Shown one piece after another: positions 8,141-39,104 of a DNA stretch of 39,104 nt. The DNA comes from Bacteroidia bacterium (GTDB lineage Bacteria; Bacteroidota; Bacteroidia; Bacteroidales; Azobacteroidaceae). A program made the position numbers and the translations under genes. The notes under the pieces are model-generated. The model ran no database searches. It worked only from the letters and a program-made list of their open reading frames with translations, and had not been told where the DNA came from. The DNA lies in contig BNTV01000038.1 in NCBI GenBank assembly GCA_025996865.1, positions 1 to 39,104 of the forward strand, given 5' to 3'. Within the stretch, counting starts at the first letter, position 1. Each line of letters starts with the position of its first letter.

Positions 8141-9469
8141 TTATTCGATAACGATTTCTCCTAATCCAAATTCGGCAATCTGCATCGTATTACCGCTCGT
8201 GACGCCGTTACCGGGATAATCGGGATGCTGATACTTATCCGTAGTGTAATTCCTGCTTTGTACAGCCAAATTGACCTTGACATAACGATAGGACGACTTG
8301 GTTATCGGAATTGTATAAATAGCATCTTCCACGGAAGTAACGGAACCGACATACGAACCTTTTTGCGGAATCCAAACTATATTTGCATCGGCGCCGGCAG
8401 ATTCGGCAGGAGCTATCAGGGTGAAATTTTCACCATCGTTACTGCCCTCTACTATAATGCCATACACCCGCAAATAATTGTAGTTATTCGTACCTACGGA
8501 CCCTGCCGGATTGGAATAACTTCCGCTGCGGTGGCTCCACTTGATGTACTCAAACTCCCGGACTGTTTTCATATCAACGATAAATGAGGGAGGCGTGGAT
8601 CCTTCCGGAGGAGCTACTCCGTTTATAGATCCGCCCGGTTTCACCAATGACAGATAGGAGCCGGATTGTCCATCGAACATGTGTTCAGGTAGTCCTGTTA
8701 CGGGGGCAGCCTGTGAACCGCCGTCCCACATATAACCATAACCATTGTGGGTTTGTGTAGTTACCGTCCAGTTTGCACGGTCGATATCTACTTCTCTTTT
8801 TACGAGATCCTGCACGGTCACATTACAATCCATTGACAAGTTGCTGCCGTCGGTTGTTTTTATTGTGATCGTTGTATTGCCTACGTTTACAGGAGAAATA
8901 ACACCTGCTGCACTGACCGTAACGACAGTCTCGTCATTAGAGGCATAAGTAACGGATTTATCCCATGTATCTGCAGGAATAAGCGTTACACATGCGGCTA
9001 AATCGAAGGTCGTTCCGCCTACTTTCAGTTTTATATCGCGCCCTGCCGCCGTCACGTTAATAGCAGTGGCTTTTATCATGTGGTCGGTAATATTGACCAC
9101 AAATCTTGTACTTACTCCGGAACCATCCGTCGCACTGACGATTAAGGTATCTGTCCCGAAAGCTTTCGGTTTAAGAAGTCCTGTTCCGGTTACTTCCATC
9201 AATTCGGAGCGCTTGTTTGTGAATGTTACCTCTTTATTTTTTGCATCTTGAGGCAGGATCACCACATTGAGTTGCAGTTCTTCGTTGTCTTTAAACGAAA
9301 TTTGCATGGAGGGCGTTCCCGAACTTACATAAACCGCTTCTTTAACGGCGATTGAAGTGACCTTGCCGTCATTTTCCGGTTCAAAGCCTTGGGGTTCGCA
9401 GCCTGTTATCGCCGTCATCGCAGTCGCTATTACGGCGGTTAAATATAAATAATAGCTAATCTTTCTCAT
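8141..9469 (-). CDS. Surface lipoprotein with Ig-like and F5/8C domains
   Basis: A 442-residue lipoprotein (lipobox ITGC, Cys24) in the position normally taken by SusE/SusF-type surface glycan-binding proteins, 24 nt after susD. Two bacterial Ig-like (BIG2-type) repeats span about residues 34-131 and 132-222. A C-terminal F5/8C discoidin-like domain spans about 228-442. The F5/8C part resembles the first F5/8C domain of the neighbouring M60 peptidase (shared IDRANWTVTTQT, LPEH-FD, YNYLRVYG, MQIAEFGLG). The two genes share an identical 32-nt stretch at 8757-8788 and 7922-7953. Likely role: binding the target glycan at the outer surface. It has no catalytic motif. Confidence 0.85.
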   Translation of the reverse strand: MRKISYYLYLTAVIATAMTAITGCEPQGFEPENDGKVTSIAVKEAVYVSSGTPSMQISFKDNEELQLNVVILPQDAKNKEVTFTNKRSELMEVTGTGLLKPKAFGTDTLIVSATDGSGVSTRFVVNITDHMIKATAINVTAAGRDIKLKVGGTTFDLAACVTLIPADTWDKSVTYASNDETVVTVSAAGVISPVNVGNTTITIKTTDGSNLSMDCNVTVQDLVKREVDIDRANWTVTTQTHNGYGYMWDGGSQAAPVTGLPEHMFDGQSGSYLSLVKPGGSINGVAPPEGSTPPSFIVDMKTVREFEYIKWSHRSGSYSNPAGSVGTNNYNYLRVYGIIVEGSNDGENFTLIAPAESAGADANIVWIPQKGSYVGSVTSVEDAIYTIPITKSSYRYVKVNLAVQSRNYTTDKYQHPDYPGNGVTSGNTMQIAEFGLGEIVIE

Positions 9470-9493
9470 ATTTTTTTATTTGACGGTTGTTAA

Positions 9494-11491
9494 TTAACGT
9501 TTTATATCTTGCCATCCGGGACTTTGCGTCAGGTTTTTATTTAATTCGAGTTCCTGTAAGGGAATCGGATTGTAATAATACTTGTCATCCCACTTTACAA
9601 CTCCATTTGCTACGTTCGGGCTTTTCGGATAACCGATGATGAAACCTTCGCTATCTACGAAGACATCCGAGTTGAGGGTAGCTTTCGGCGCATTTTTCGC
9701 TTTGCCTGTATTTGAGCCGTCATACAATTTTTGCTTTTCCGTCGTAAACTTTATGCCCCGTATCGGTTTTTCGATAAATTTACCGGCTTTCCAACGCAGA
9801 AGATCTTCGCGGCGCAATCCTTCCATAGCCATTTCTATGCGGCGTTCGCGGCGGATTTCGCGGAGTACCGGACTTGGAATATATCCCGCATATTGTTGAT
9901 AGAGATTGTCTAATCTTTCGTCGGCGGGAATATTCTGCAAGCTCAGCTTGCTGTTGGGATATTTGGTGAAATCAAATCCGGCGCGCCCGCGCAAGGCATT
10001 AACGGTAATATCCAAATCTGCATTGGTGATTGTACCCAATTCCGCTTTGGCCTCGGCATACATCAACAAGGCTTCGGCATAACGGAAAATCAAGGCTGTT
10101 TGTGTACCGGAGGTAGTCGATCCGTTGTCAATTTGTTCGTTCGTCCAATGTTTGATGAACATATAGCCGGTAACGCACGGACCGCCTGTCGGTGTTTGAT
10201 TGGCCGTAGGGCAGTTGTAGGTAATTTCCGGATATTTAAGACCTTGCAGCGCTTGATTGATTGCTCCCCCGTTTTCGTCCCGGTTGAAAATGGTGACATA
10301 TTCGCCCGGTTTCACTACGGTTTGCCGCAGGCGCGGGTCGCGGTCATCCAATTCTCGCCAGTCGTCGCCGTCATAACCTTTGAAGAGCGAACTTGAGGTA
10401 ACGGGCAATCCGTCGATACATAAATATTCGTCTATCAAATCTTTGGTTGCTCCTTTACAGTAACGTCCGCTTGCATTTCCACGGTTCATACTGAAGTATC
10501 GCGAAGTTCCATGTCCCAATTTAGATCCGTCGTACACACGCGCAAGAATGGCCTCCTTGTGGTCGCCGCCCGTCATTCCGTTCAGTTTGAACAGGTGCCA
10601 GTAAGGATCGTTTCCTACTTCGGCGCTCGGTACATTGTACAATTGATATTTGCCGGAAGCGATGATCTCATTACATGCCGTCGCACATTCTTCAAGGAAT
10701 TTATTGGCTGTAGCCTGTAAGTTCAATTCGGTGTGATACTTGCGGAAAGTGCCTTCAAAAAGGCAAAAACGCGCTTTCAGGAAGTTTGCCATATCGCGAT
10801 TGATCCGTCCGGTTGCTCCTCCGGTATTGCTTATATGCTGAACGGCAAAGTTGAGGCAGTTCAGTACGCTATCGGCAAGTTGCGTGCGCGGGGTACGCGG
10901 AGCATACAATTCGGGAGAATTGATGTTCAGATCTTTTTCCAGCCAGGGTGCTTCGCCAAAGGCAACCATTTTCTGGTAATAGTCCCATGCCTTGAAGAAA
11001 TAAGCTTCGGCTACCCATTTGTTCAGGACGTCGAGATTGCTCACCGATCCTTCCGCTTCGTGATAGTGATTCAGAAAATAATTGATAATACGCAAGTTAT
11101 TCCATCTCCAACCGGTGTTGTCTGCGTTATCAAGCGAAGTTGTTGCGCTGGACGGCACCTGCCAGGTACCTTGTAACCGGTTCACAATATCACCCGAAGT
11201 GCTGCTGAATCCTATGGCATTATCGGTGAAAATATCGCCGAACATAATTTGACTTCCGCGTGTAATAAAAAACGGCGGGGTATATTGATAGGCGTTTCCC
11301 GTCTGATGTCCCTGCGCATATACGTTATACAATTGGTTCAGATACAACGGCAGGTCGCCTTCGTTTTTCAGGAAAGAACCTTCAGCAAGCGTCTGAATGG
11401 GATCTTGCTGCATAAAATCGTCATTACATGAGGTCAGGACAAATCCGGCGGACATGCAAGCGATTGCAATATGTTTTATTATTTTGTTCAT
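9494..11491 (-). CDS. SusD/RagB-family outer-membrane lipoprotein
   Basis: A 665-residue glycan-binding lipoprotein that caps the partner SusC channel. The lipobox LTSC places the acylated Cys at residue 22, followed by NDD, an acidic stretch fitting surface export. SusD features are the N-terminal NEGDLPLYLNQLYNVY helix, WRWNNLRIINYFLNHY, VAEAYFFKAWDYYQKM, the LIFRYAEALLMYAEAKAELG TPR helix and the C-terminal IRRERRIEMAMEGLRREDLLRW block. It ends near LTQSPGWQDIKR, a typical SusD C-terminus. It follows susC by 21 nt, so it is clearly co-transcribed. Confidence 0.95.
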   Translation of the reverse strand: MNKIIKHIAIACMSAGFVLTSCNDDFMQQDPIQTLAEGSFLKNEGDLPLYLNQLYNVYAQGHQTGNAYQYTPPFFITRGSQIMFGDIFTDNAIGFSSTSGDIVNRLQGTWQVPSSATTSLDNADNTGWRWNNLRIINYFLNHYHEAEGSVSNLDVLNKWVAEAYFFKAWDYYQKMVAFGEAPWLEKDLNINSPELYAPRTPRTQLADSVLNCLNFAVQHISNTGGATGRINRDMANFLKARFCLFEGTFRKYHTELNLQATANKFLEECATACNEIIASGKYQLYNVPSAEVGNDPYWHLFKLNGMTGGDHKEAILARVYDGSKLGHGTSRYFSMNRGNASGRYCKGATKDLIDEYLCIDGLPVTSSSLFKGYDGDDWRELDDRDPRLRQTVVKPGEYVTIFNRDENGGAINQALQGLKYPEITYNCPTANQTPTGGPCVTGYMFIKHWTNEQIDNGSTTSGTQTALIFRYAEALLMYAEAKAELGTITNADLDITVNALRGRAGFDFTKYPNSKLSLQNIPADERLDNLYQQYAGYIPSPVLREIRRERRIEMAMEGLRREDLLRWKAGKFIEKPIRGIKFTTEKQKLYDGSNTGKAKNAPKATLNSDVFVDSEGFIIGYPKSPNVANGVVKWDDKYYYNPIPLQELELNKNLTQSPGWQDIKR

Positions 11492-26705: not shown

Positions 26706-27989
26706 TTATTCTCCGATTTCCGGTTGATTATCCTCTTCAACTTCAATAGCCTCTCCCAACAGTTCAATAGTTTGTTGTTGAGGCAATTCTTGTACGGTTC
26801 GCAATTTGCGTTCGATGACTCTGGAACGGATTCCGGCTTCGTCGATTACATTGGCGGCTTCTTGCAGCTTTTTCTTGGTTCTCTCCAAAACAAGGCCGAA
26901 TTTGCCAAATTCGGTTTTCACAGCGCCTAAAATTCCCCAAACTTCACTGGACCGTTTTTCAATGTCTAATGTATTGAAACCCATTTGTAAACTGCTCAGG
27001 AAGGCAACCAAATTGGTCGGGCCTACTACCGTGATTTTAAAATCGCGTTGCAAAGTTTCGAACAATCCTGTGCGCCGGAGAATTTCCGCGTAAAGCCCTT
27101 CCGTCGGAACAAACATGATGGCAAAATCGGTAGTTACAGGGGGATTGATGTATTTGTCACGAATGTCTTTGGCGTTTTTCTTCACCGAGTTCTCAAATTG
27201 TTTGGAAATAAGTTCGACGTCTTTCGGATTGAGATTTGCCATATTTTCATAAGCTTCGAGCAGACGTTGATAATCTTCATTCGGGAATTTCGAATCAACA
27301 GGCAACAACAGGGATTCGTCGTCGTAGTTTTTCCTCGGTAGTTTGATGGCATATTCGACCCGTTCCTGACTGCCTTCTTTGACGGCTGCATTTTGCTCGT
27401 ATTGTTTGGGCGATAGAAACTGTTCAAGAATAGAGCCTAATTGTATTTCACCCAAACTCCCTCTGGTTTTTACGTTCGTTAATACCTTTTTCAAATCACC
27501 GACGCCGGAAGCCAGTGACTGCATTTCACCTAATCCTTTGTGGACTTGTTCGAGCCGCTCGCTAATCATGCGGAACGATTCGTTGAAACGTTTTTCGACG
27601 GTTTCCTGAAGCTTTTCGTCCACGACTTTCCGCATGTCTTCCAACTTACGGCTATTGTCTTCTTGCAGGGTTTTTAGTCTGTTTTCGACTGTTTCGCGGA
27701 TATCTTTCAGGTTCAGGTTTAATTTGTCCTCAAATGATTTGAGGGTATTGGTTAGTTCAAAGCGATTATCTTTGAAAGAATTGTTTAATTCTTCGCGATT
27801 GTCTTTGAAGGATTTTTGATTTTCCTCGCGGTTTCGTCCGAATTCGTCGCGCATCAAGAGGTCGAGTCTGGATAGGGTGTTATCCATCTTTAAAAAGTCC
27901 TCCCGGTTATCTTTCGGCTTTTTGAGGATAATCAGGAGGATATTGATAGCCGCGAGAATAATGAGAATAATGAGGATTGTTGTTGTCAT
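26706..27989 (-). CDS. rmuC: RmuC family protein
   Basis: A 427-residue protein with an N-terminal membrane anchor (MTTTILIILIILAAINILLII). A long charged coiled-coil region follows (about 30-160, with repeated FKDNREEL segments). The conserved RmuC domain spans about 165-400 (LTNVKTRGSLGEIQLGSILEQFL, LPVDSKFPNEDYQRLLEAYE, FAIMFVPTEGLYAEI, TVVGPTNLVAFLSSLQMGFNTL). RmuC is a nuclease-fold protein whose loss changes recombination at inverted repeats in E. coli; its molecular role is not settled. The gene overlaps the upstream secreted-protein gene by 4 nt (ATGA type), so they are translationally coupled. Confidence 0.93.
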   Translation of the reverse strand: MTTTILIILIILAAINILLIILKKPKDNREDFLKMDNTLSRLDLLMRDEFGRNREENQKSFKDNREELNNSFKDNRFELTNTLKSFEDKLNLNLKDIRETVENRLKTLQEDNSRKLEDMRKVVDEKLQETVEKRFNESFRMISERLEQVHKGLGEMQSLASGVGDLKKVLTNVKTRGSLGEIQLGSILEQFLSPKQYEQNAAVKEGSQERVEYAIKLPRKNYDDESLLLPVDSKFPNEDYQRLLEAYENMANLNPKDVELISKQFENSVKKNAKDIRDKYINPPVTTDFAIMFVPTEGLYAEILRRTGLFETLQRDFKITVVGPTNLVAFLSSLQMGFNTLDIEKRSSEVWGILGAVKTEFGKFGLVLERTKKKLQEAANVIDEAGIRSRVIERKLRTVQELPQQQTIELLGEAIEVEEDNQPEIGE

Positions 27990-31558: not shown

Positions 31559-31584
31559 TGGACATGGAGGGATTCGAACCCTCG
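31559..31584 (-). other. Orphan tRNA 3' end (candidate attachment site of an island)
   Basis: On the minus strand this reads as a tRNA T-arm, GAGGG-TTCGAAT-CCCTC (stem 31567-31571 with 31579-31583), followed by a 7-nt acceptor strand CATGTCC and the discriminator A. No tRNA body exists upstream on that strand: no GGACATG partner strand, D-arm or anticodon arm is seen in the 200 nt before the coding region. It is therefore a fragment. Such 3'-tRNA scars are typical attL/attR sites of tyrosine-recombinase elements. The orientation predicts that the element extends to the right and that the intact tRNA is at its far end. Confidence 0.7.
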
Positions 31585-31752: not shown

Positions 31753-33555
31753 CTATTTTGATGCTGATTTTTGATTTTTCCAATTATTCAAAGTTTTTTC
31801 GGTAACACCAAGTTTTTCAGCTGCGGATTTTCGGCTTTGATAATTCTCTACTGCCCATTCCTGCAATTTGAAGTAAAAATCAGTTATCATTTCGGACGGT
31901 TGTTTCTCATTGTGATTTACCAAAATCCCGTTTTGCTCGTTTGACGGTTTTTGTGAATGATATTTTGTAAATGCGTTTTTGGTATATTCAAACGGCGATT
32001 GTTCTTCAATCAGTGCTTTTGTTTCATCATCAAATTGATTGAAAGCATTGTAATACATTGCAATCTTTTGTAAATCACGATAATTACCATATAATTTTAA
32101 TTCTTTGAGCCAATTAAGTAATTCTATTTCTTGCGGAACATTCGGCATCGGTTTGATTTTGTCAAACAAATATTTCCAAGTATTTTCCCAATCAGTTTCT
32201 CTGTCTTCTTTCGTATAACGCAAAGGCGGCAATTCAACAACGTGCTGCACAATTCTGTCATAAAAATCCGGCAATAAAATATCTCTCAATTCGGCAACCG
32301 TTTTATTCGTTGCAAAAATCAGTTTACATTTTATTTTTGTCGACTCTGTTGAACCTAATTTTCTGATATACATAAAATCATTTTTATCTGTTTGAATTGC
32401 TTTCATTAGCTTTGATTGAACTAATTTTGACAGATTATGTATTTCGTCTAAAAACAATATTCCGCCGTTTGCCTCTACAAAAAGTCCATTTTTACCCTCT
32501 TTCAAACCACCTGTAAAAGTACCTTCTTTGTAACCGAATAATTCCGATTCGGCTGTATTATCATCAGAAAAAGAGGCACAATCAGCCTCAATGATTTTAG
32601 TTCCGCGTTCACTCAATTTTCTAATATTATTTGATTTACCGATACCTCTTTCGCCGATAAGTAAAATAGAAAATCCGGTATTTAGAAAAGTACCTAATTG
32701 TTTATCAACTAACTTTCTATTTGCTGATTTTGTTTCGGGAAAAACTTCTTTTATGTTTTTTCCAATATCAGAAATCAATTTTACAGGTATTTCTTTAATT
32801 GAAAACAGTTTAAATCTATCTTTTGTAGAAGATTTGGTTTTATCGTCATAAGTTTTTACAAATCTTGTTCTTTCCGGCAACAATCCCGCTTCTGCCAAGG
32901 TGTGCCAGACTACTTGCGTTTCGCTACTGCCTAACGAAACATTGATGAAAACTTGCGTATCGTGTTTTTGTTTCCCAAAATAAGTTTTCGACCATTTATT
33001 AACCTCTTTAGCTATTTGTTGCTCGTCCCGTAAATCTGTTACAGGTAATTCAATAACTTGTAGATTGTGATACACATTCTTAAAATTTGATTTTTCTTGC
33101 AGCCATTTCAACTGTTCTAAAATAGGATAATGTTGAATATTACGCCAAACAGTTTGTTCAAAAGCAGGCAACTTGTCAGCATGATTATTTTGGATAAAAT
33201 CAGTTTCTTTTTCGAGGCAATAACAAATATCGTCATTTTCTATTATTTGTGCGTAAACGTCTTTCAATCCCAATTCAATTATTTTTGTGTCTTCCAAAAT
33301 ATTTTTTTTGTAATCAAACCGTCTTGTCGAAAGTTTATCAAACATTTCTTGTGGTGCAGTCAGATAAATAATTTTGTCAAAAATAAAACCATTACTATTT
33401 GGGGTATTAAATACCTCATTCAGTTTCTCTTGATTAAGGTTTTCAAAAACAATCTTGTTGCTTGGTAATCCTTTCAGATAAAATTCGCTCAAAATATGCT
33501 TGAGATAAGCAACTCCGTGAGTTGTGTAATGCCAAGTGATGTATGTATTTCTCAT
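31753..33555 (-). CDS. RtcR-like CARF sigma-54 activator (bEBP)
   Basis: A 600-residue regulator. The N-terminal part (about 1-265) resembles the CARF domain of RtcR: VFINVSLGSSETQVVWHTLAEA (202-223) matches the RtcR ligand-pocket segment of the type TTGTHVAQICWFLLTEA. The AAA+ domain has Walker A GERGIGKS (301-308), the sigma-54 contact loop GTFTGG (345-350), Walker B GILFLDEI (365-372) and sensor regions (FATNKTV, DFYDRIVQHVVELPPLR). A Fis-like HTH lies at about 571-595 (SRKSAAEKLGVTEKTLNNW). RtcR proteins sense RNA-derived ligands such as tRNA fragments and activate RNA-repair genes. Here it is divergent from the viperin operon and its sigma-54 promoter, and no rtcAB is visible. The contact loop departs from the usual GAFTGA. 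Confidence 0.88.
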   Translation of the reverse strand: MRNTYITWHYTTHGVAYLKHILSEFYLKGLPSNKIVFENLNQEKLNEVFNTPNSNGFIFDKIIYLTAPQEMFDKLSTRRFDYKKNILEDTKIIELGLKDVYAQIIENDDICYCLEKETDFIQNNHADKLPAFEQTVWRNIQHYPILEQLKWLQEKSNFKNVYHNLQVIELPVTDLRDEQQIAKEVNKWSKTYFGKQKHDTQVFINVSLGSSETQVVWHTLAEAGLLPERTRFVKTYDDKTKSSTKDRFKLFSIKEIPVKLISDIGKNIKEVFPETKSANRKLVDKQLGTFLNTGFSILLIGERGIGKSNNIRKLSERGTKIIEADCASFSDDNTAESELFGYKEGTFTGGLKEGKNGLFVEANGGILFLDEIHNLSKLVQSKLMKAIQTDKNDFMYIRKLGSTESTKIKCKLIFATNKTVAELRDILLPDFYDRIVQHVVELPPLRYTKEDRETDWENTWKYLFDKIKPMPNVPQEIELLNWLKELKLYGNYRDLQKIAMYYNAFNQFDDETKALIEEQSPFEYTKNAFTKYHSQKPSNEQNGILVNHNEKQPSEMITDFYFKLQEWAVENYQSRKSAAEKLGVTEKTLNNWKNQKSASK

Positions 33556-33618
33556 TTTCCTATTAGTTTAATTTTGCAAAGGTAATAAATTTCCTAATAA
33601 GAAAATAATTTCCAATAG
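33556..33618. promoter_or_regulatory. Three repeated motifs, candidate activator binding sites
   Basis: TTTCCTATTAG (33556-33566), TTTCCTAATAAG (33590-33601) and TTTCCAATAG (33609-33618) are related copies in the divergent intergenic region. TTCCTATTAG and CTAATAAGAA (33594-33603) also form a 9/10 inverted repeat. They lie about 100-160 nt upstream of the expected start at 33717, the usual distance for enhancer sites of sigma-54 activators, and next to the regulator's own start. The AT-rich context lowers confidence. Confidence 0.45.
33577..33584 (-). promoter_or_regulatory. -7 box for the RtcR-like gene
   Basis: The minus strand reads TACCTTTG, a TAnnTTTG match, 22 nt before the regulator's start codon and embedded between the repeated motifs. 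It suggests constitutive or autoregulated expression from a housekeeping promoter. Confidence 0.4.
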
Positions 33619-33690
33619 CAAAATCTGTGAAATATTTTTATATCATTAATATTCAGAATATTAAAATTGAAGCGTAAATTTTTTTTTCTT

Positions 33691-33706
33691 TGGCACGCAG
33701 ATTGCA
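33691..33706 (+). promoter_or_regulatory. Sigma-54 (-24/-12) promoter of the viperin operon
   Basis: TGGCACG followed by 4 nt and TTGCA matches the sigma-54 consensus (TGGCACG-N4-TTGCW) at every defined position, with the invariant GG (33692-33693) and GC (33704-33705) 12 nt apart. Start is expected near 33717, leaving a 43-nt leader before the ATG at 33760. It faces the operon and lies beside a sigma-54 activator gene. Confidence 0.93.
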
Positions 33707-33759
33707 AATATAATAGCAGCAACGCCTGAAGCAATTAGAGGGCAATTAAAAAATACAGT

Positions 33760-34047
33760 ATGAACAATTTCATTATTACAGACCACGCACTTTATCGGCA
33801 ATGGGATAGAGGCATTGACAGAGGGGTATTATCAAAAATTTATCCGTTTGTTGCAGATTCAAAGAACAAAAAACAAGTAGTTTTTGTAATGCCCTCGTTT
33901 TTCAAAAATCAGGGAGTTTCAGCTATTGTCAATCAATGCTTAATTCTAATCGTAAGAGGCAAATATTTAGTTACTTGCTATTGGCGGGATTTAAACGAAT
34001 GTATGTTCGGGAAAAAGATTTTTAACAATCTTCAAATATTGAACTGA
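33760..34047 (+). CDS. Small DUF4258-like protein, first gene of the viperin operon
   Basis: A 95-residue basic protein. The start FIITDHALYRQWDRGID resembles the signature HAxxRxxxRGI of DUF4258-type proteins. The late strand LILIVRGKYLVTCYWRD fits the terminal beta-strands of small RelE/BrnT-like folds, several of which are RNases or toxins. The resemblance is by motif only and no activity can be claimed. It follows the sigma-54 promoter directly, and its stop is one nucleotide before the viperin ATG, so the two are translationally coupled. Possible roles are a nuclease effector or an accessory factor for the viperin. Confidence 0.7.
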   Translation: MNNFIITDHALYRQWDRGIDRGVLSKIYPFVADSKNKKQVVFVMPSFFKNQGVSAIVNQCLILIVRGKYLVTCYWRDLNECMFGKKIFNNLQILN

Positions 34048-34048
34048 T

Positions 34049-34918
34049 ATGATAACGACAGTAAATTATCACCTCACAAAAGCCTGCAATTTCAAATGTA
34101 AGTATTGCTATGCACAGTTTAAGGATATTCACGAAGAAGGATTACCGAAAGCCAAACAATTTGAAGTTGTACGCCAACTTGCTGAAAGCGGCAAATTTCG
34201 TAAAATCAATTTTGCTGGTGGCGAACCAACACTTGTTCCGCACATTACGGAATTGATTCAGTACGCAAAATCGTTAGGACTCGAAACGAGCATTGTTACC
34301 AATACAAGCCAAATTGATTTTGAGTGGGTAAAAAACATTTCGTCTTATTTGGACATTTTGGCGATTAGCATTGATAGTCTCAATCTTGAAACCAATATCA
34401 AAATTGGCAGCAATCAATCGGGCAAGATATTGTCAATAAACAATTTGCGTAATATTTCAACCGCTTGTCAATGTTTTGGTGTTCAATTGAAAATCAATAC
34501 TGTTGTGTCAAAATTCAATCACACTGAAAAATTGACCGATTTTGTAAACGAGATGCAGCCTTTTCGATGGAAAATTCTGCAAGCAACAGAGGTCAAAGGG
34601 CAAAACGACTGCAATTTTGAAGAAGTTGCAGTTTCAACAGACGATTTTTTGTACTTTTGCAGTCGCAATAGCAAGGGATTACTACCTGAAATCAAAGTTG
34701 TTAAAGAAAGTAACGAACTAATCAAAGGGTCATATATTATGGTAGATTGTCTGGGTAGATTTTTCGACAGTAGTCAATCTTGCCATAATTACTCAGCTCC
34801 TATTTTAGAGGTTGGAGTTAAAAATGCTTTAAATCAAATAAATGTTGATTCTCAAAAGTTTATTGCACGAAACGGAAATTATTCAACAATAAAAGAAAAT
34901 ATAGTATGCACATTTTAA
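34049..34918 (+). CDS. Prokaryotic viperin (pVip), radical SAM ddh-nucleotide synthase
   Basis: A 289-residue radical SAM enzyme. Viperins convert CTP (or UTP/GTP in some bacteria) to 3'-deoxy-3',4'-didehydro nucleotides that terminate viral RNA synthesis. The [4Fe-4S] motif is CNFKCKYC (Cys13, Cys17, Cys20). KINFAGGEP (52-60) matches the animal viperin KINFSGGEP. YLDILAISIDS (100-110) matches YLDILAISCDS, and KINTVVSKFN (148-157) matches KINSVINRFN. PFRWKILQ (171-178) parallels PVRWKVFQ, and the C-terminal ILEVGVKNAL parallels ILDVGVEEAI. These shared blocks separate it from MoaA and other radical SAM families. The membrane helix of animal viperin is absent, as in other bacterial forms. It lies 1 nt after the small gene and overlaps the glycosyltransferase by 13 nt. 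Nucleotide preference is unknown. Confidence 0.93.
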   Translation: MITTVNYHLTKACNFKCKYCYAQFKDIHEEGLPKAKQFEVVRQLAESGKFRKINFAGGEPTLVPHITELIQYAKSLGLETSIVTNTSQIDFEWVKNISSYLDILAISIDSLNLETNIKIGSNQSGKILSINNLRNISTACQCFGVQLKINTVVSKFNHTEKLTDFVNEMQPFRWKILQATEVKGQNDCNFEEVAVSTDDFLYFCSRNSKGLLPEIKVVKESNELIKGSYIMVDCLGRFFDSSQSCHNYSAPILEVGVKNALNQINVDSQKFIARNGNYSTIKENIVCTF

Positions 34919-36186
34919 AAATAATTCACGGCTACCCGCCTACCTACAATGCTGGATCGGAAGTTTACAGCCAATCAGTCTGTAATGAACTATCAAAGAA
35001 ACACAAGGTTTCGGTTTTCACGCGCGAAGAAAATTTGTATGCTCCCGATTTTTCCATTCGCCACGAAAAACAAAGCGACAATTTGGATTTGTACATTGTT
35101 AATAATCCACAGGGCAAAGACGGCTACCGACATAAGCAAATGGATGATAATTTTGCCGATTTGTTAAAAACTATAAAACCTGATATTGCCTATATTGGAC
35201 ACCTCAATCACCTTTCAACAGGGCTTGTAGATGAACTCAATAAACAAAAGATTCCAATCATTTTCATGCTGCATGATTATTGGTTAATGTGCCCAAGAGG
35301 TCAATTTTTAACCCGAAGTATCGGGAAGAAAGACAATTTTCAGGTTTGCAACGGACAAGATGACCACAAATGTGCCTGCAATTGTTACGAAGTTTATTTT
35401 AGTGGCAAAGAAACTGAAAGAGAACAGGATATTGCTGCATGGACAAATTGGATAAATCGCAGAATGATTGAAACAAAAGCTATTATCAACAAAATAGATT
35501 TGTTTATTGCACCTGCAAAATATCTACGAAATCGCTTTATCAACGATTTTAGTATTCCTGAGAACAAAATCATTTACCTTGATTACGGTTTTCCTATTGA
35601 ATATCTGACGCAAACCGAAAAATCAAAAGACAAAACCAATTTCACTTTTGGCTATATTGGGACTCATATTCCCGCAAAGGGGGTGAATTTGTTGATTGAA
35701 GCATTTAAACGAATTGAACAACCGGCAACACTGAAAATATTCGGGCGCGAAAATGGACAAAGCACAAAAGCATTGAAAAAAATGGCGGAAACTTCGCATA
35801 ATCCTATTGAGTTTTGCGGCGAGTATGTGAATAAAAACTTGGCAAATACAGTTTTTGCCAATGTCGATTGTATTGTTGTACCTTCAATTTGGGCAGAAAA
35901 TTCGCCGCTTGTCATCCACGAGGCACAGGAGTGCAAAGTGCCTGTGATTACGGCAAATTATGGTGGAATGTGCGAGTATGTAAATCATAAAGTAAATGGA
36001 TTGTTATTTAATCACCGAGATATAAATTCATTGGCAGAACAAATGAAATGGGCGGTTGAACACCCTGTCGAGATGCAGCGTTTGGGCAATCGTGGCTACC
36101 TGTATTCCGAAGGCGGCAAAGTGCCTGATATTGAAAATCATTGTGTTGAACTTTTAAAACTCTTTGAAAATGTCAGAACAAAATAA
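34906..36186 (+). CDS. GT4-family glycosyltransferase in the viperin operon
   Basis: A 426-residue retaining GT-B glycosyltransferase. The N-terminal acceptor domain begins IIHGYPPTYNAGSEVYSQSV, containing the GT4 pocket motif. The C-terminal donor domain has FGYIGTHIPAKGVNLLIEAF and SPLVIHEAQECKVPVITANYGG, the latter with the conserved Glu region. An unusual Cys-rich insert (CPRGQFL, then CNGQDDHKCACNCY, about residues 127-165) could bind zinc or an iron-sulfur cluster. The substrate is unknown. It starts inside the viperin gene (13-nt overlap) and its end overlaps the second radical SAM gene by 17 nt. This argues for a shared pathway rather than a cell-envelope role, although the latter cannot be excluded. 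Confidence 0.88.
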   Translation: MHILKIIHGYPPTYNAGSEVYSQSVCNELSKKHKVSVFTREENLYAPDFSIRHEKQSDNLDLYIVNNPQGKDGYRHKQMDDNFADLLKTIKPDIAYIGHLNHLSTGLVDELNKQKIPIIFMLHDYWLMCPRGQFLTRSIGKKDNFQVCNGQDDHKCACNCYEVYFSGKETEREQDIAAWTNWINRRMIETKAIINKIDLFIAPAKYLRNRFINDFSIPENKIIYLDYGFPIEYLTQTEKSKDKTNFTFGYIGTHIPAKGVNLLIEAFKRIEQPATLKIFGRENGQSTKALKKMAETSHNPIEFCGEYVNKNLANTVFANVDCIVVPSIWAENSPLVIHEAQECKVPVITANYGGMCEYVNHKVNGLLFNHRDINSLAEQMKWAVEHPVEMQRLGNRGYLYSEGGKVPDIENHCVELLKLFENVRTK

Positions 36187-37204
36187 ATTGTGGCGCATAA
36201 CGCTTGATACCAACCCCGAAGATTGTAATTTGCACTGTATAATGTGCGAGGAACATAGCCTGTACAGCGATTTCAAGCAAAAACTTTTTGAAACAACGGG
36301 CGTAAAATTTCGTCGAATGAAGTTTGAAATTGTTGAGAGAATTTTTGATGAAGCGGCAAAATTAGGCGTAAAAGAAATTATCCCTTCAACGATGGGCGAG
36401 CCGTTGTTGTACAAAGATATAGAACGGATTTTTGAATTGTCGCAAAAGCATAATATCAAAATCAACCTCACGACAAACGGTACTTTTCCCAAGAAATCGG
36501 TAGAAGAATGGGCAAAAATCATTATCCCCAATACGACCGACATAAAAATCAGTTGGAACGGCGCAACCACCGAAACTTCCGAAAGGATAATGACAGGCTC
36601 GAATTTCCAAATGGCATTGGAAAACACAAAGAAACTGATTGTTCTCCGAAACGCCCATTTTGAAAAAACAGGTTATTTCTGCCGTATTACTTTCCAACTG
36701 ACTTTTATGCAAAACAATATGCACGAGTTAGCTGACATTGTGAAACTTGCCGCCGAAATTGGAGTTGATAGAGTCAAGGGACACCACCTTTGGACACATT
36801 TCGCTGAAATCGAAAATCTGTCAATGAAAGCCACGAAAGAAAGCGTTGCAAAGTGGAACGAGTATGTAAAACAGGCATACGAGGCACAGGAAAAATACTG
36901 CAAACCAAACGGCGAGAAAGCTTTGTTGGAAAACATTTTACCTTTGTCTGATAACGAAAAAACGGAAGTTCCCGAAAGTTATGAATGTCCGTTTTTAGAA
37001 AAAGAACTTTGGATTTCCGCAACTGGAAAAGTTTCTCCCTGCTGTGCTCCCGACAACCTTCGGCAATCGTTGGGCGATTTTGGAAATGTCGAAACAACAA
37101 CGATACAAGAAGTTTTAGCAAGTCCGATTTACAGGAAACTTGTTGAAAACTATAAAAACGTTGAATTATGTAAAACTTGTAATATGCGTAAACCATTATG
37201 TTAG
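36170..37204 (+). CDS. Radical SAM/SPASM-domain enzyme
   Basis: A radical SAM protein of 344 residues. The cluster motif is CNLHCIMC (Cys19, Cys23, Cys26), followed by a variant STMGEP in place of GGEP, and INLTTNGTF. The C-terminal region has ECPFLEKELWISATGKVSPCCAPDN and ends CKTCNMRKPLC, a SPASM/twitch-type auxiliary-cluster region. Such enzymes modify peptides, sugars or other small molecules; no substrate can be assigned. I chose the ATG at 36170; a TTG six nucleotides earlier is possible. It overlaps the glycosyltransferase gene by 17 nt and the phosphatase gene by 7 nt. It has no visible precursor peptide gene beside it. Confidence 0.88.
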   Translation: MSEQNKLWRITLDTNPEDCNLHCIMCEEHSLYSDFKQKLFETTGVKFRRMKFEIVERIFDEAAKLGVKEIIPSTMGEPLLYKDIERIFELSQKHNIKINLTTNGTFPKKSVEEWAKIIIPNTTDIKISWNGATTETSERIMTGSNFQMALENTKKLIVLRNAHFEKTGYFCRITFQLTFMQNNMHELADIVKLAAEIGVDRVKGHHLWTHFAEIENLSMKATKESVAKWNEYVKQAYEAQEKYCKPNGEKALLENILPLSDNEKTEVPESYECPFLEKELWISATGKVSPCCAPDNLRQSLGDFGNVETTTIQEVLASPIYRKLVENYKNVELCKTCNMRKPLC

Positions 37205-37785
37205 AACAAATCAAAAAATATTCTGAAAACGATAAAATTTCTCTTTTAATTCGCCACGCCGACCGCGACAAAATTCCCGCAGGCGAATTTGGAAACGATG
37301 TTTTGCTTAATGAAAAAGGCGAAGAACGAGCATTGAGCTTCGGTAAAAGTTTGTCGGAGTTGAAAATAAACAAGATTTTCACAAGTCCTGTTCAACGCTG
37401 TGTTCAGACAGCGGAATATATTACAAAAGGTTACGGAAAATCGCTTGAAATAACACAATCGCACGAACTTGGCGACCCCGGATTGCACATTTCAGACGAC
37501 CAAGTAGCAGGAAAATTCTTTCTAACAGAAGGATTTGACGAATTATATTACAGAATTACGCACAACATTGACATTCCGGGAATAAGCGTAACGAAAGAAT
37601 TTAACACAAATATGACTGATTTTTTGACTGAAAACAGCAAAGAAAACGGCTTAACTATATTTGTCACACACGATTTACTGGTTGCTCACTATCATTTCAG
37701 TATTAATGGGAAAATTTACCCAAAAGACGATTGGGTAAAATATTTAGGTGGTTTAATACTTAAAAACGGCAAATATGAAGAATGA
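37198..37785 (+). CDS. Histidine phosphatase (phosphoglycerate mutase-like)
   Basis: A 195-residue cytosolic phosphatase of the histidine phosphatase superfamily. LLIRHADRDKI carries the phospho-acceptor His20 of the RH(G/A) motif. TSPVQRCVQTAEY supplies the second phosphate-binding Arg (67), and FVTHDLLVAHYH holds the second catalytic His late in the chain. Family members act on sugar phosphates, nucleotides or protein phosphates. In this operon a nucleotide or sugar-phosphate substrate is an attractive guess. It overlaps its upstream neighbour by 7 nt and the methyltransferase gene by 11 nt. Confidence 0.88.
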   Translation: MLEQIKKYSENDKISLLIRHADRDKIPAGEFGNDVLLNEKGEERALSFGKSLSELKINKIFTSPVQRCVQTAEYITKGYGKSLEITQSHELGDPGLHISDDQVAGKFFLTEGFDELYYRITHNIDIPGISVTKEFNTNMTDFLTENSKENGLTIFVTHDLLVAHYHFSINGKIYPKDDWVKYLGGLILKNGKYEE

Positions 37786-38731
37786 ATTGAAAAATATGTT
37801 TACAGAACATTGGAAATATTTTGCCGTCAATGCCGCTTGCAAGTTGAATTTGTTTGATGCGTTGGAAAATTCTAAAACTGTAAAGGAATTAGCCAATGAA
37901 TTGAATTTGCACGAAAAAAATCTTGTAACATTGCTTTCGGCATTGTGTAATAACGATTTTTTGAAATACACAAATAGCAAATTCAGTTTAACAGCAAAAT
38001 CGGAATTGCTTACCGACAAGCACCCCGAAAGTTTGAAATACGCTTGTATGAATTGGGCAGGCGAACACTTGACTGCGTGGCAGAATCTTGATTATTCCAT
38101 ACGAACAGGGCAAAGTGCTTTTGAAAACTTGTATCAAAGTAATTTCTTTGATTATTTAGACAAGCACCCAGATAAGTTAGGCGACTATCATAAGGCGATG
38201 TTTGAATACGCAAGAGATGATTACAAACATTTGCCAGAATTGGTAGATTTCAGTGTACATAAATCCGTTTTGGATTGTGGCGGCGGTTACGGCGCAGCGA
38301 TAAATGCAGTTAAAGAAAAGTTTCCTCAAATTGAATGTTATTTGTTTGATTTGCCGAAAGTAGTTGAAAGTATAAAAGTTATAAATATTCAAAAGATTGG
38401 CGGCAGTTTCTTTGAAACAATTCCGCAAGTTGCCGAAGCAATTATTTTGTCGAGGGTATTGCACGATTGGGAGGACGAAAAAGCAAAGTTGATTTTACAA
38501 AATTGCTTTGCTGCATTGCCGAAAGGCGGAACGCTTTATGTAATTGAAAATTGCGCCGACAAAATTAATATTGATTTGTCATTGCTTTCACTCAATATGG
38601 CTGTGATGTGCCAAAGTTTCGAGCGAACTTCTACTGAATACATTGACCTTGTACAATCAGCAAGATTTGTGTTTCAAAAAAACATAAAACTCAATGAATT
38701 ACAAACCGTTTTAATCTTTAAAAAATTATGA
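37775..38731 (+). CDS. SAM-dependent O-methyltransferase-like protein
   Basis: A 318-residue class I methyltransferase of the COMT/hydroxyindole O-methyltransferase type (Methyltransf_2). An N-terminal winged-helix dimerisation domain covers about 1-95 (LFDALENSKTVKELANELNLHEKNLVT is split here into LFDALENS and KELANELNLHEKNL). The SAM-binding motif SVLDCGGGYGAA is at about 164-175, and SRVLHDWEDEKA (226-237) includes the conserved His of O-methyltransferases (His230). Methylation target unknown; a small-molecule hydroxyl is likely by family. It overlaps the phosphatase gene by 11 nt and the next gene by 4 nt (ATGA), so all members are translationally coupled. Confidence 0.88.
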   Translation: MKNELKNMFTEHWKYFAVNAACKLNLFDALENSKTVKELANELNLHEKNLVTLLSALCNNDFLKYTNSKFSLTAKSELLTDKHPESLKYACMNWAGEHLTAWQNLDYSIRTGQSAFENLYQSNFFDYLDKHPDKLGDYHKAMFEYARDDYKHLPELVDFSVHKSVLDCGGGYGAAINAVKEKFPQIECYLFDLPKVVESIKVINIQKIGGSFFETIPQVAEAIILSRVLHDWEDEKAKLILQNCFAALPKGGTLYVIENCADKINIDLSLLSLNMAVMCQSFERTSTEYIDLVQSARFVFQKNIKLNELQTVLIFKKL

Positions 38732-39104
38732 ATTGGCAACAAATAACAGTATCCCCCGACAACACGCACTTTCTTTTTGAGAGCAACCCGATTTTCGACA
38801 AGCGTTTTATCGAAGTATTGAAATTCCATACGCCCGGATTTGCACCTGTAAAAGATGAAACAGGGGCGTATCATATTGACAGTAACGGAAATCCTTTGTA
38901 TTCTGAACGATATAGTCGAACTTTCGGCTATTACTGCAATCGTGCCGCCGTTATCCAAAAGCAAAACTGGTTTCATATCAACGAACAAGGCAAAAGAGTT
39001 TACCCACAAAACTATGCATGGACAGGCAATTTTCAAGAAAATTTTTGCACAGTAAGAGATTTTGATGGCAATTATTTTCATATTGATTTGCAGGGAAATA
39101 GGAT
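38728..39104 (+). CDS. WG-repeat-like protein, cut by the window edge
   Basis: The frame opens at the ATG at 38728, overlapping the methyltransferase stop by 4 nt, and stays open to the last base (125 codons seen), so the gene continues beyond the window. The visible part contains repeated short units of about 22-30 residues with aromatic and HID/HIN motifs (YHIDSNGNPLYSERYS, WFHINEQGKRVYPQNYA, YFHIDLQGNR). These resemble WG/KWG-type beta-repeat proteins. No signal peptide is seen. Function unknown; such repeats usually mediate binding. Confidence 0.7.
   Translation, partial: MNWQQITVSPDNTHFLFESNPIFDKRFIEVLKFHTPGFAPVKDETGAYHIDSNGNPLYSERYSRTFGYYCNRAAVIQKQNWFHINEQGKRVYPQNYAWTGNFQENFCTVRDFDGNYFHIDLQGNR

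Follow-up and report, generated by a model that had tools for sequence, protein, structure and literature searches.

What switches on a bacterial viperin? To our knowledge this is largely an open question, and a locus of a Bacteroidia bacterium (Azobacteroidaceae; assembly GCA_025996865.1, contig BNTV01000038.1, whose whole stretch of 39,104 nt is called the window hereafter) offers an answer that can be put to the test: a CARF-sigma-54 alarm. At this locus, a sigma-54 activator with CARF, AAA+ and helix-turn-helix (HTH) domains is divergent from an operon containing a viperin and a biosynthetic module of glycosyltransferase (GT), radical SAM, phosphatase, O-methyltransferase and WG-repeat genes. 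This arrangement, which the first-pass annotation of the DNA had reported as a CARF-type activator facing a viperin operon, is indeed seen in the window. On sequence grounds, the locus is characterized by the architecture of its regulator, a promoter motif, overlapping genes, the identity of the viperin, and the recurrence of both the pair and the module in Bacteroidota; the CARF fold of the regulator is taken from a structural model. What is newly added is that an RtcR-like-controlled defence operon carries a viperin plus an extra biosynthetic module. We put it at about an even chance that this is a sigma-54-type operon of viperin and module, predicted to be switched on by a CARF-AAA+ activator that senses RNA ends arising from phage attack.

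The regulator and the promoter motif

Profile matches and structure comparison identify the product of the gene at 31753-33555 (minus strand) as a CARF-AAA+-HTH sigma-54 activator of the PADLOC family RtcR_PspF1. This model (CARF-AAA-HTH) scores best with 253 bits, versus 138.8 and 88 bits for its sister models, and ranks first, with the models in the same order, for the regulators of loci L201, L197 and L204 (L, G and C being our labels for loci, genomes and contigs). An AlphaFold2 model compared with the PDB supports a Rossmann-like CARF fold for the sensor domain, the closest solved folds being those of the CARF proteins Csm6, Can2, Card1, Cad1 and Csa3, which bind cyclic oligoadenylate (cOA). 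The Walker A (GERGIGKS) and Walker B (LFLDE) motifs are present, and the host assembly encodes RpoN. The first-pass annotation had described the operon as RtcR/CARF-controlled, and the RtcR part of that label has to give way to RtcR_PspF1-type: we rejected a canonical RtcR because the NCBIfam model NF038308 gives 120.8 bits against a cut-off of 650, and the gene context differs as well. No rtcA or rtcB product was found among the nine window proteins scanned, and the RtcB match of the host assembly sits on another contig (C70). In RtcR, RNA ends bind the CARF domain and the activator then assembles, the tested ligand being RNA with a cyclic phosphate end (PMC7790460; papers with PMC numbers are cited here from the accessible parts of their text). 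The window regulator is predicted to bind a nucleotide or RNA ligand.

The divergent control region between regulator and operon (33556-33759) contains an exact sequence match to the -24/-12 sigma-54 promoter motif at 33691-33706 on the operon strand (plus), which ends 53 bp upstream of the first operon gene, just as the first-pass annotation had claimed in describing a perfect promoter divergent from the regulator. The same region holds a 10-nt direct repeat, TTTCCTATTA/TTTCCTAATA, at 33556-33565 and 33590-33599, a possible site for the activator. We compared 13 hand-picked divergent regions, 11 from loci with a CARF regulator and two from CARF-less ones (L191, L192, L193, L196, L204, L205 and L162 lay outside the comparison, and the regions of L201 and L202 are 92% alike, so not independent). 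The pattern [AT]TGGCA[CT], chosen after the sequences had been read, occurs on the operon strand in 8 of the 13 regions and on the opposite strand in none, compared with a mean of 0.79 in dinucleotide shuffles, and an intermediate sigma-54 pattern occurs in 5 of the 13 (mean of 0.06 in mononucleotide shuffles).

The viperin operon

The viperin (34049-34918, plus strand), a radical SAM protein and predicted synthase of 3'-deoxy-3',4'-didehydro nucleotides (ddh-nucleotides, ddhNTP), was assigned by profile models, motifs and a tree. It passes the bacterial viperin model NF038283 with 288 bits (cut-off 180) and fails TIGR04278 (176.4 bits versus 450). The CX3CX2C cysteines C13, C17 and C20 are kept, as are GGEP and the lysines K52, K148 and K175, which we take to line the nucleotide site. 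Judged by its sequence, the protein is a clear bacterial viperin, with ddh-nucleotide synthesis as its predicted activity.

The viperin tree, built by a quick method with the Shimodaira-Hasegawa-like approximate likelihood ratio test (SH-aLRT) as its sole support measure, has 101 prokaryotic rows and no eukaryotic one. The window viperin falls into a Bacteroidota-type clade of 44 rows (SH-aLRT 95), to which 12 of the 15 regulator-linked viperins belong. Together with the bacterial model, this placement among prokaryotic viperins agrees with membership of the prokaryotic viperin (pVip) clade, on which the first-pass annotation had staked its proposal. The label "regulator-linked" changes three times on the tree, compared with 13.8 times in shuffles, with 36 unlabelled rows left out; since ten of the linked rows were taken from among the window viperin's 120 closest proteins, this clustering arises partly by construction. 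Of the four viperins found via the regulator, that of L203 lies inside the clade and those of L197, L209 and L208 lie outside it; therefore, the tie between viperin and regulator arose or was lost more than once.

The other operon genes, all on the plus strand, were assigned by profile scans except the first, a 95-aa open reading frame (ORF) at 33760-34047 whose product is possibly RelE-like and whose family relatives stand after, or are fused to, viperins. Downstream of the viperin are a GT4-family glycosyltransferase (34906-36186; 13-nt overlap with the viperin), a radical SAM/SPASM enzyme with a TTG start and the cluster motif CNLHCIMC (36164-37204; 344 aa when counted from the ATG at 36170), a histidine phosphatase of branch 1 (37198-37785), an O-methyltransferase with a dimerisation domain (37775-38731), and a WG-repeat protein (38728-39104) that is truncated by the contig end and has about 233 aa in relatives. 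As neighbouring genes from the viperin to the methyltransferase overlap by 7-17 nt (the radical SAM gene taken from its ATG), a single transcript is suggested. The radical SAM enzyme is fused to the GT in several relatives (L195, L201, L202, L232, L233 and L234); at other loci the histidine phosphatase is swapped for a tyrosine-phosphatase-like enzyme, and at some the O-methyltransferase is missing or a carbamoyltransferase stands instead. Pfam GT4-conflict matches the GT weakly (28.9 bits), from which we conclude nothing. The closest named relative of the radical SAM enzyme, at 89%, is from Dysgonomonas reticulitermitis, so a member of the Dysgonomonadaceae living in termite guts may be the host.

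The small first gene, judged from sequence comparison, links viperins without the regulator to modules without a viperin. A profile built from the copies of the window, L195, L201 and L202 finds the copy of L199 with 76 bits, and the gene leads the operon at 5 of 11 module loci (window, G017, G185, G805 and G858). When the profile was run over all ORFs of the fetched viperin loci, relatives were found at five loci without the regulator: in L006, L008, L009 and L039 the gene (51-57 bits) stands directly after the viperin, and in L023 (68 bits) it follows at a distance of about 0.5 kb. In two viperins the family forms the C-terminal part, namely, in L211 of G185 (8656-9810; residues 298-372, E 5e-11 alone) and in P0119 (residues 295-367). 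Neither the window ORF nor the L199 copy has a Pfam match, and Foldseek returned no match for the gene; the fused domain of L211 reaches DUF4258, weakly, at E 0.18. The first gene of L236 matches DUF4258 with 20.8 bits, below the cut-off of 25, and was rejected as a homologue (20% alignment to the window ORF, no BLAST match, E 0.36 with the window-type profile), which weakens the link to DUF4258 that had rested on it. DUF4258 is listed among the toxin families of the BECR fold (PMC11980606), and relE genes adjoin some pVips (PMC10865869); the small first gene may be what the latter describes as relE. It also recalls, by analogy, the BrnT-like genes upstream of RtcR-associated CoCoNuTs (PMC11090510).

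Pair and module in other genomes

A whole-regulator profile found the regulator in 12 of 295 genomes of the order, and its N-terminal domain in 10 of 295 genomes of the class; the two draws overlap, both including the window's own genome, and give 21 distinct regulator loci. In four of these (G010, G036, G044 and G726) the contig stops no more than 0.6 kb from the regulator. Among the 17 informative loci, the viperin adjoins the regulator in five (window, G249, G769, G837 and G884, with the contigs of G249 and G884 ending inside the viperin), and module genes are present at 11 (window, G017, G171, G174, G185, G226, G769, G785, G805, G837 and G858; in G017, G171 and G769 the GT alone is visible before the contig end, regulator and module of G174 are not in divergent orientation, and another gene interrupts the module of G226). 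Viperin or module is thus found at 13 of the 17 loci, and eight have module genes with no adjacent viperin.

Seen from the viperin side, a threshold of E<=1e-40 gives eight genomes with a viperin (seven among the 295 of the order and two among the 395 of the phylum, the window's own being counted twice). In three of them a regulator accompanies it, adjacent in G000 and G249, and in G035 as a distant relative with 33% identity and 226 bits to the regulator profile; no regulator was seen beside the viperin in the fetched stretches of G185, G238, G288 and G604. The viperin pieces of G035 lie on two contigs (L214, 87-578; L215, 7326-9993); for one of them the matching stretch contains an in-frame TAA, and in L215 the distant regulator relative adjoins the viperin piece on the same strand. 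In G185, the viperin (L211, 8656-9810) is on a different contig from the regulator locus L195, whose module is viperin-less. An apparent pair in G171, with the regulator on C133 and the viperin on C115, was rejected since L166 has a GT, not a viperin, directly beside the regulator; G171 is counted as module only, and its 3.3-kb viperin contig shows no regulator.

A large protein set yielded ten further viperin-regulator pairs whose longest contigs are of identical size (top 120 proteins per list), compared with a mean of 0.60 and a maximum of three at 100 other offsets. The first-pass annotation had proposed a search for the pair in other genomes, and these ten pairs together with the five loci above provide the recurrence. 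Searching the phylum with the whole regulator returned the own genome only (1 of 395), a search we judge insensitive because only three candidates per genome were scored. The regulator was found in neither viral contigs nor plasmids, and no close relative of the radical SAM enzyme was found in viral contigs; plasmid viperins are at most 38.3% identical to the window's among the best 15 of 38 records, and phages gave partial viperin matches only.

The module itself was followed with the window radical SAM enzyme as query, which found 11 of 295 genomes of the class. All 11 loci have a GT, a radical SAM and a WG-repeat gene (the latter truncated in the window and lying across the regulator in G837), nine a phosphatase of histidine or tyrosine type, five an O-methyltransferase and two a carbamoyltransferase. 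The CARF regulator is present at five of them. In G816 and G927, a shorter AAA+ relative of the regulator that lacks CARF is divergent to the same module, so the sensor domain is not fixed; such CARF-less, sigma-54-activator-like proteins front the module at L236 6132-7085 and L232 6689-7702. At L199 (7235-9599), the place of the viperin before the GT is taken by another, N-terminally extended radical SAM enzyme and by an adenylate-kinase-like gene.

Relatives of the module also occur in the Undecim cluster of Wolbachia phage WO, with 47% (GT) and 49% (radical SAM) identity to the window proteins, and similar genes are carried by three Arsenophonus plasmids, one of which was read. GT, radical SAM, WG-repeat and methyltransferase relatives lie at L230 12678-16669 (Undecim) and L231 7852-11936 (Arsenophonus plasmid), and the latter plasmid also carries panB, panC and panE. 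UC3 of the Undecim cluster is a GT-radical SAM fusion, and the genes of the cluster have been interpreted as polysaccharide or antibiotic biosynthesis (PMC9203015). A literature search for the parts of the module returned no relevant paper, most subscription papers being outside its coverage.

Proposed mechanism, rival explanations and related systems

We infer the following steps from signal to product. RNA ends produced during phage infection would be the signal for the CARF domain; on binding them the activator would assemble, as RtcR does, and remodel the sigma-54 polymerase at 33691-33706. The viperin would then make ddh-nucleotides that stop phage transcription, and the module of GT, radical SAM enzyme, phosphatase, O-methyltransferase and WG-repeat protein would make a second, sugar-bearing small molecule alongside them. 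The small first product, perhaps RelE-like, would partner both viperin and module and may cut RNA, feeding the signal. The whole would be a swappable regulon in which the viperin is one optional effector. The first-pass annotation had placed the viperin under an RNA-damage alarm: the arrangement is real, but it is one configuration of a wider regulon, and we rejected the regulator as a dedicated viperin switch given the eight loci with a module and no adjacent viperin and the four loci with neither. If the proposal is right, RNA-damage sensing would be tied to antiviral chemistry, and RtcR-type control would reach beyond RNA repair and restriction to cover antiviral nucleotide chemistry as well. 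The GT-radical-SAM-WG module shared with Undecim would likewise be tied to a defence-linked regulator family and, with the small first gene as the link, to viperin, so that the Undecim cluster of Wolbachia phage WO gains a new functional lead.

Several results weigh against the alarm as proposed. The sigma-54 contact loop of the regulator reads GTFTGG where GAFTGA is expected (among 20 other regulators scanned, 12 have the exact GAFTGA and one, that of L204, GTFTGG), and a Pfam scan gave no match of PF06956 to it. The strict sigma-54 consensus lies upstream of one of 22 regulators, the window's alone, and the looser pattern was, as said, picked after the fact. Four of the 17 informative loci have neither viperin nor module (G077, G128, which shows about 2.6 kb on the operon side, G718 and G781), and no activator was seen in the stretch fetched at 4 of the 11 radical-SAM loci. 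In the same-size test, radical SAM-regulator pairs (1 versus 0.77) and radical SAM-viperin pairs (6 including the window versus a mean of 0.98, with up to 8 at one offset) are not above chance. The RelE-like fold of the small first gene is suggested by a weak assignment. Moreover, no regulator N-terminal match above 60 bits was found within up to 10 kb at any of 80 named-genome viperin loci among the matches listed, ten of which are shorter than 10 kb; since these viperins are at most 49% identical to the window's among the matches listed, this does not test the window's own viperin clade, to which none of the 80 listed loci contributes a row.

The signal may be a different one. With the same architecture, the CARF domain might read cOA or another nucleotide messenger instead of an RNA end, as the cOA-binding nearest folds would suggest, and CARF domains are best known as cOA sensors. 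On the other hand, the regulator groups with RtcR-type proteins, for which the tested ligand is cyclic-phosphate RNA, and Csm1/Cas10 (TIGR02578) was not found in the 88%-complete host assembly, other cyclases not having been sought; we therefore regard a cyclic oligonucleotide as an unlikely signal. We hold it equally improbable that the operon is chiefly a gene cluster for the cell surface or for secondary metabolites, one that answers RNA stress such as that from antibiotics or colicin-like RNases, with the viperin as an incidental passenger. The module is certainly commoner than the viperin (11 versus 5 of the 17 loci), and the interpretation published for Undecim points the same way, but an incidental viperin fits poorly with its adjoining the regulator at those five loci and with the module's small first gene partnering viperins elsewhere, and RtcR-like activators have been reported beside defence genes (PMC4012209, PMC11090510). 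That regulator and operon are functionally unconnected chance neighbours on an ssrA island is very improbable: a piece of the ssrA 3' end does lie close by, about 170 bp away from where the regulator gene stops, but the exact promoter motif faces the operon, promoter-like sites keep to the operon strand, and the arrangement recurs across families.

The relation between viperin and module can also be read differently from the two parallel products of the proposed mechanism. In a single pathway, the viperin nucleotide would be dephosphorylated and glycosylated and, after further modification, receive a methyl or carbamoyl group, ending as a new antiviral nucleoside; if so, viperin and module together would supply novel nucleosides that terminate chains. 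The two sets of genes overlap within one operon and share the small first gene; beside a sugar GT, module loci hold phosphatases and genes resembling nucleotidyltransferases and kinases, and L208 combines the viperin with a cytidylate-kinase-like gene and the module. However, the module occurs with no adjacent viperin at L201, L202, L195 and L206, and its relatives in Wolbachia and Arsenophonus showed no viperin beside them; the viperin is therefore not needed for the module's core reaction, and we consider the single pathway a little less probable even than a cyclic-oligonucleotide signal. More speculative still is an inducible chemical immunity of Bacteroidota in which a CARF sensor of broken RNA drives a small-molecule factory that, given a viperin, decorates the viperin's ddh-nucleotide to yield a new antiviral nucleoside, with Undecim as a repurposed branch of the pathway.

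Among known systems, RtcR of rtcBA has the same CARF-AAA+-HTH activator divergent from its presumed target operon, which serves RNA repair, whereas the window operon carries the viperin and the module. RtcR-like genes also lead RtcR-associated CoCoNuT operons, often with a BrnT-like gene of the RelE family between activator and defence genes (PMC11090510). No McrBC-type GTPase, helicase or HEPN is among the window operon genes seen, the operon's end lying beyond the contig, and the CoCoNuT effector cleaves RNA or DNA while the window's is predicted to act by nucleotide chemistry. The locus resembles pVips, some of which stand beside hicA or relE (PMC10865869), in its NF038283/pVip match, its small, possibly RelE-like neighbour and, at L208, a kinase neighbour, but it adds the CARF-sigma-54 regulator and the GT-radical-SAM-WG module. 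In the eleven contiguous genes of Undecim (UC1-UC11), the UC3 fusion is followed by a fusion of WG repeat and methyltransferase (UC4 by position), with an epimerase upstream; window counterparts were seen for its GT, radical SAM, WG and methyltransferase genes alone, not for its dioxygenase, aldolases and transporters, and no viperin was seen there. Cami1 of type III CRISPR, so far as its accessible description goes, combines CARF sensing and a RelE-type fold in one ribosome-acting protein, whereas in the window the CARF and RelE-like parts would be separate genes and CARF would drive transcription. The first-pass annotation knew of no described system with this architecture. Our searches for viperin with sigma-54 and CARF, and for prokaryotic viperin with RtcR, returned no relevant paper (CARF with viperin alone was not searched, and most subscription papers lay outside the coverage), and the accessible parts of PMC8649781, PMC11291487 and PMC7159879 contain nothing on a regulator-viperin architecture. 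The claim of novelty stands to that extent but not for its components, since RtcR-like activators beside defence genes and RelE beside pVips are already in print (PMC4012209, PMC11090510, PMC10865869).

Finally, the locus may belong to an island at ssrA, the gene for transfer-messenger RNA (tmRNA), as the pattern at 31559-31584 (minus strand) would fit: this 3'-end fragment, a likely attachment-site remnant, matches ssrA at 26 of 26 positions, although against the Rfam tmRNA model the match is weak (E 0.0029, below the gathering score). No integrase was seen, no search aimed at integrases having been made. Under the usual model of ssrA integration, the island would be on the regulator side (beyond 31584). 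Across the fragment, the opposite flank includes an RmuC-family gene at 26706-27989. The assembly has two more copies of the ssrA end, each with one mismatch: one is part of an intact tmRNA (C74:174-199), and the other lies at C109:174-199. The two have a 204-bp flank in common, a hint that more than one element may sit at ssrA.

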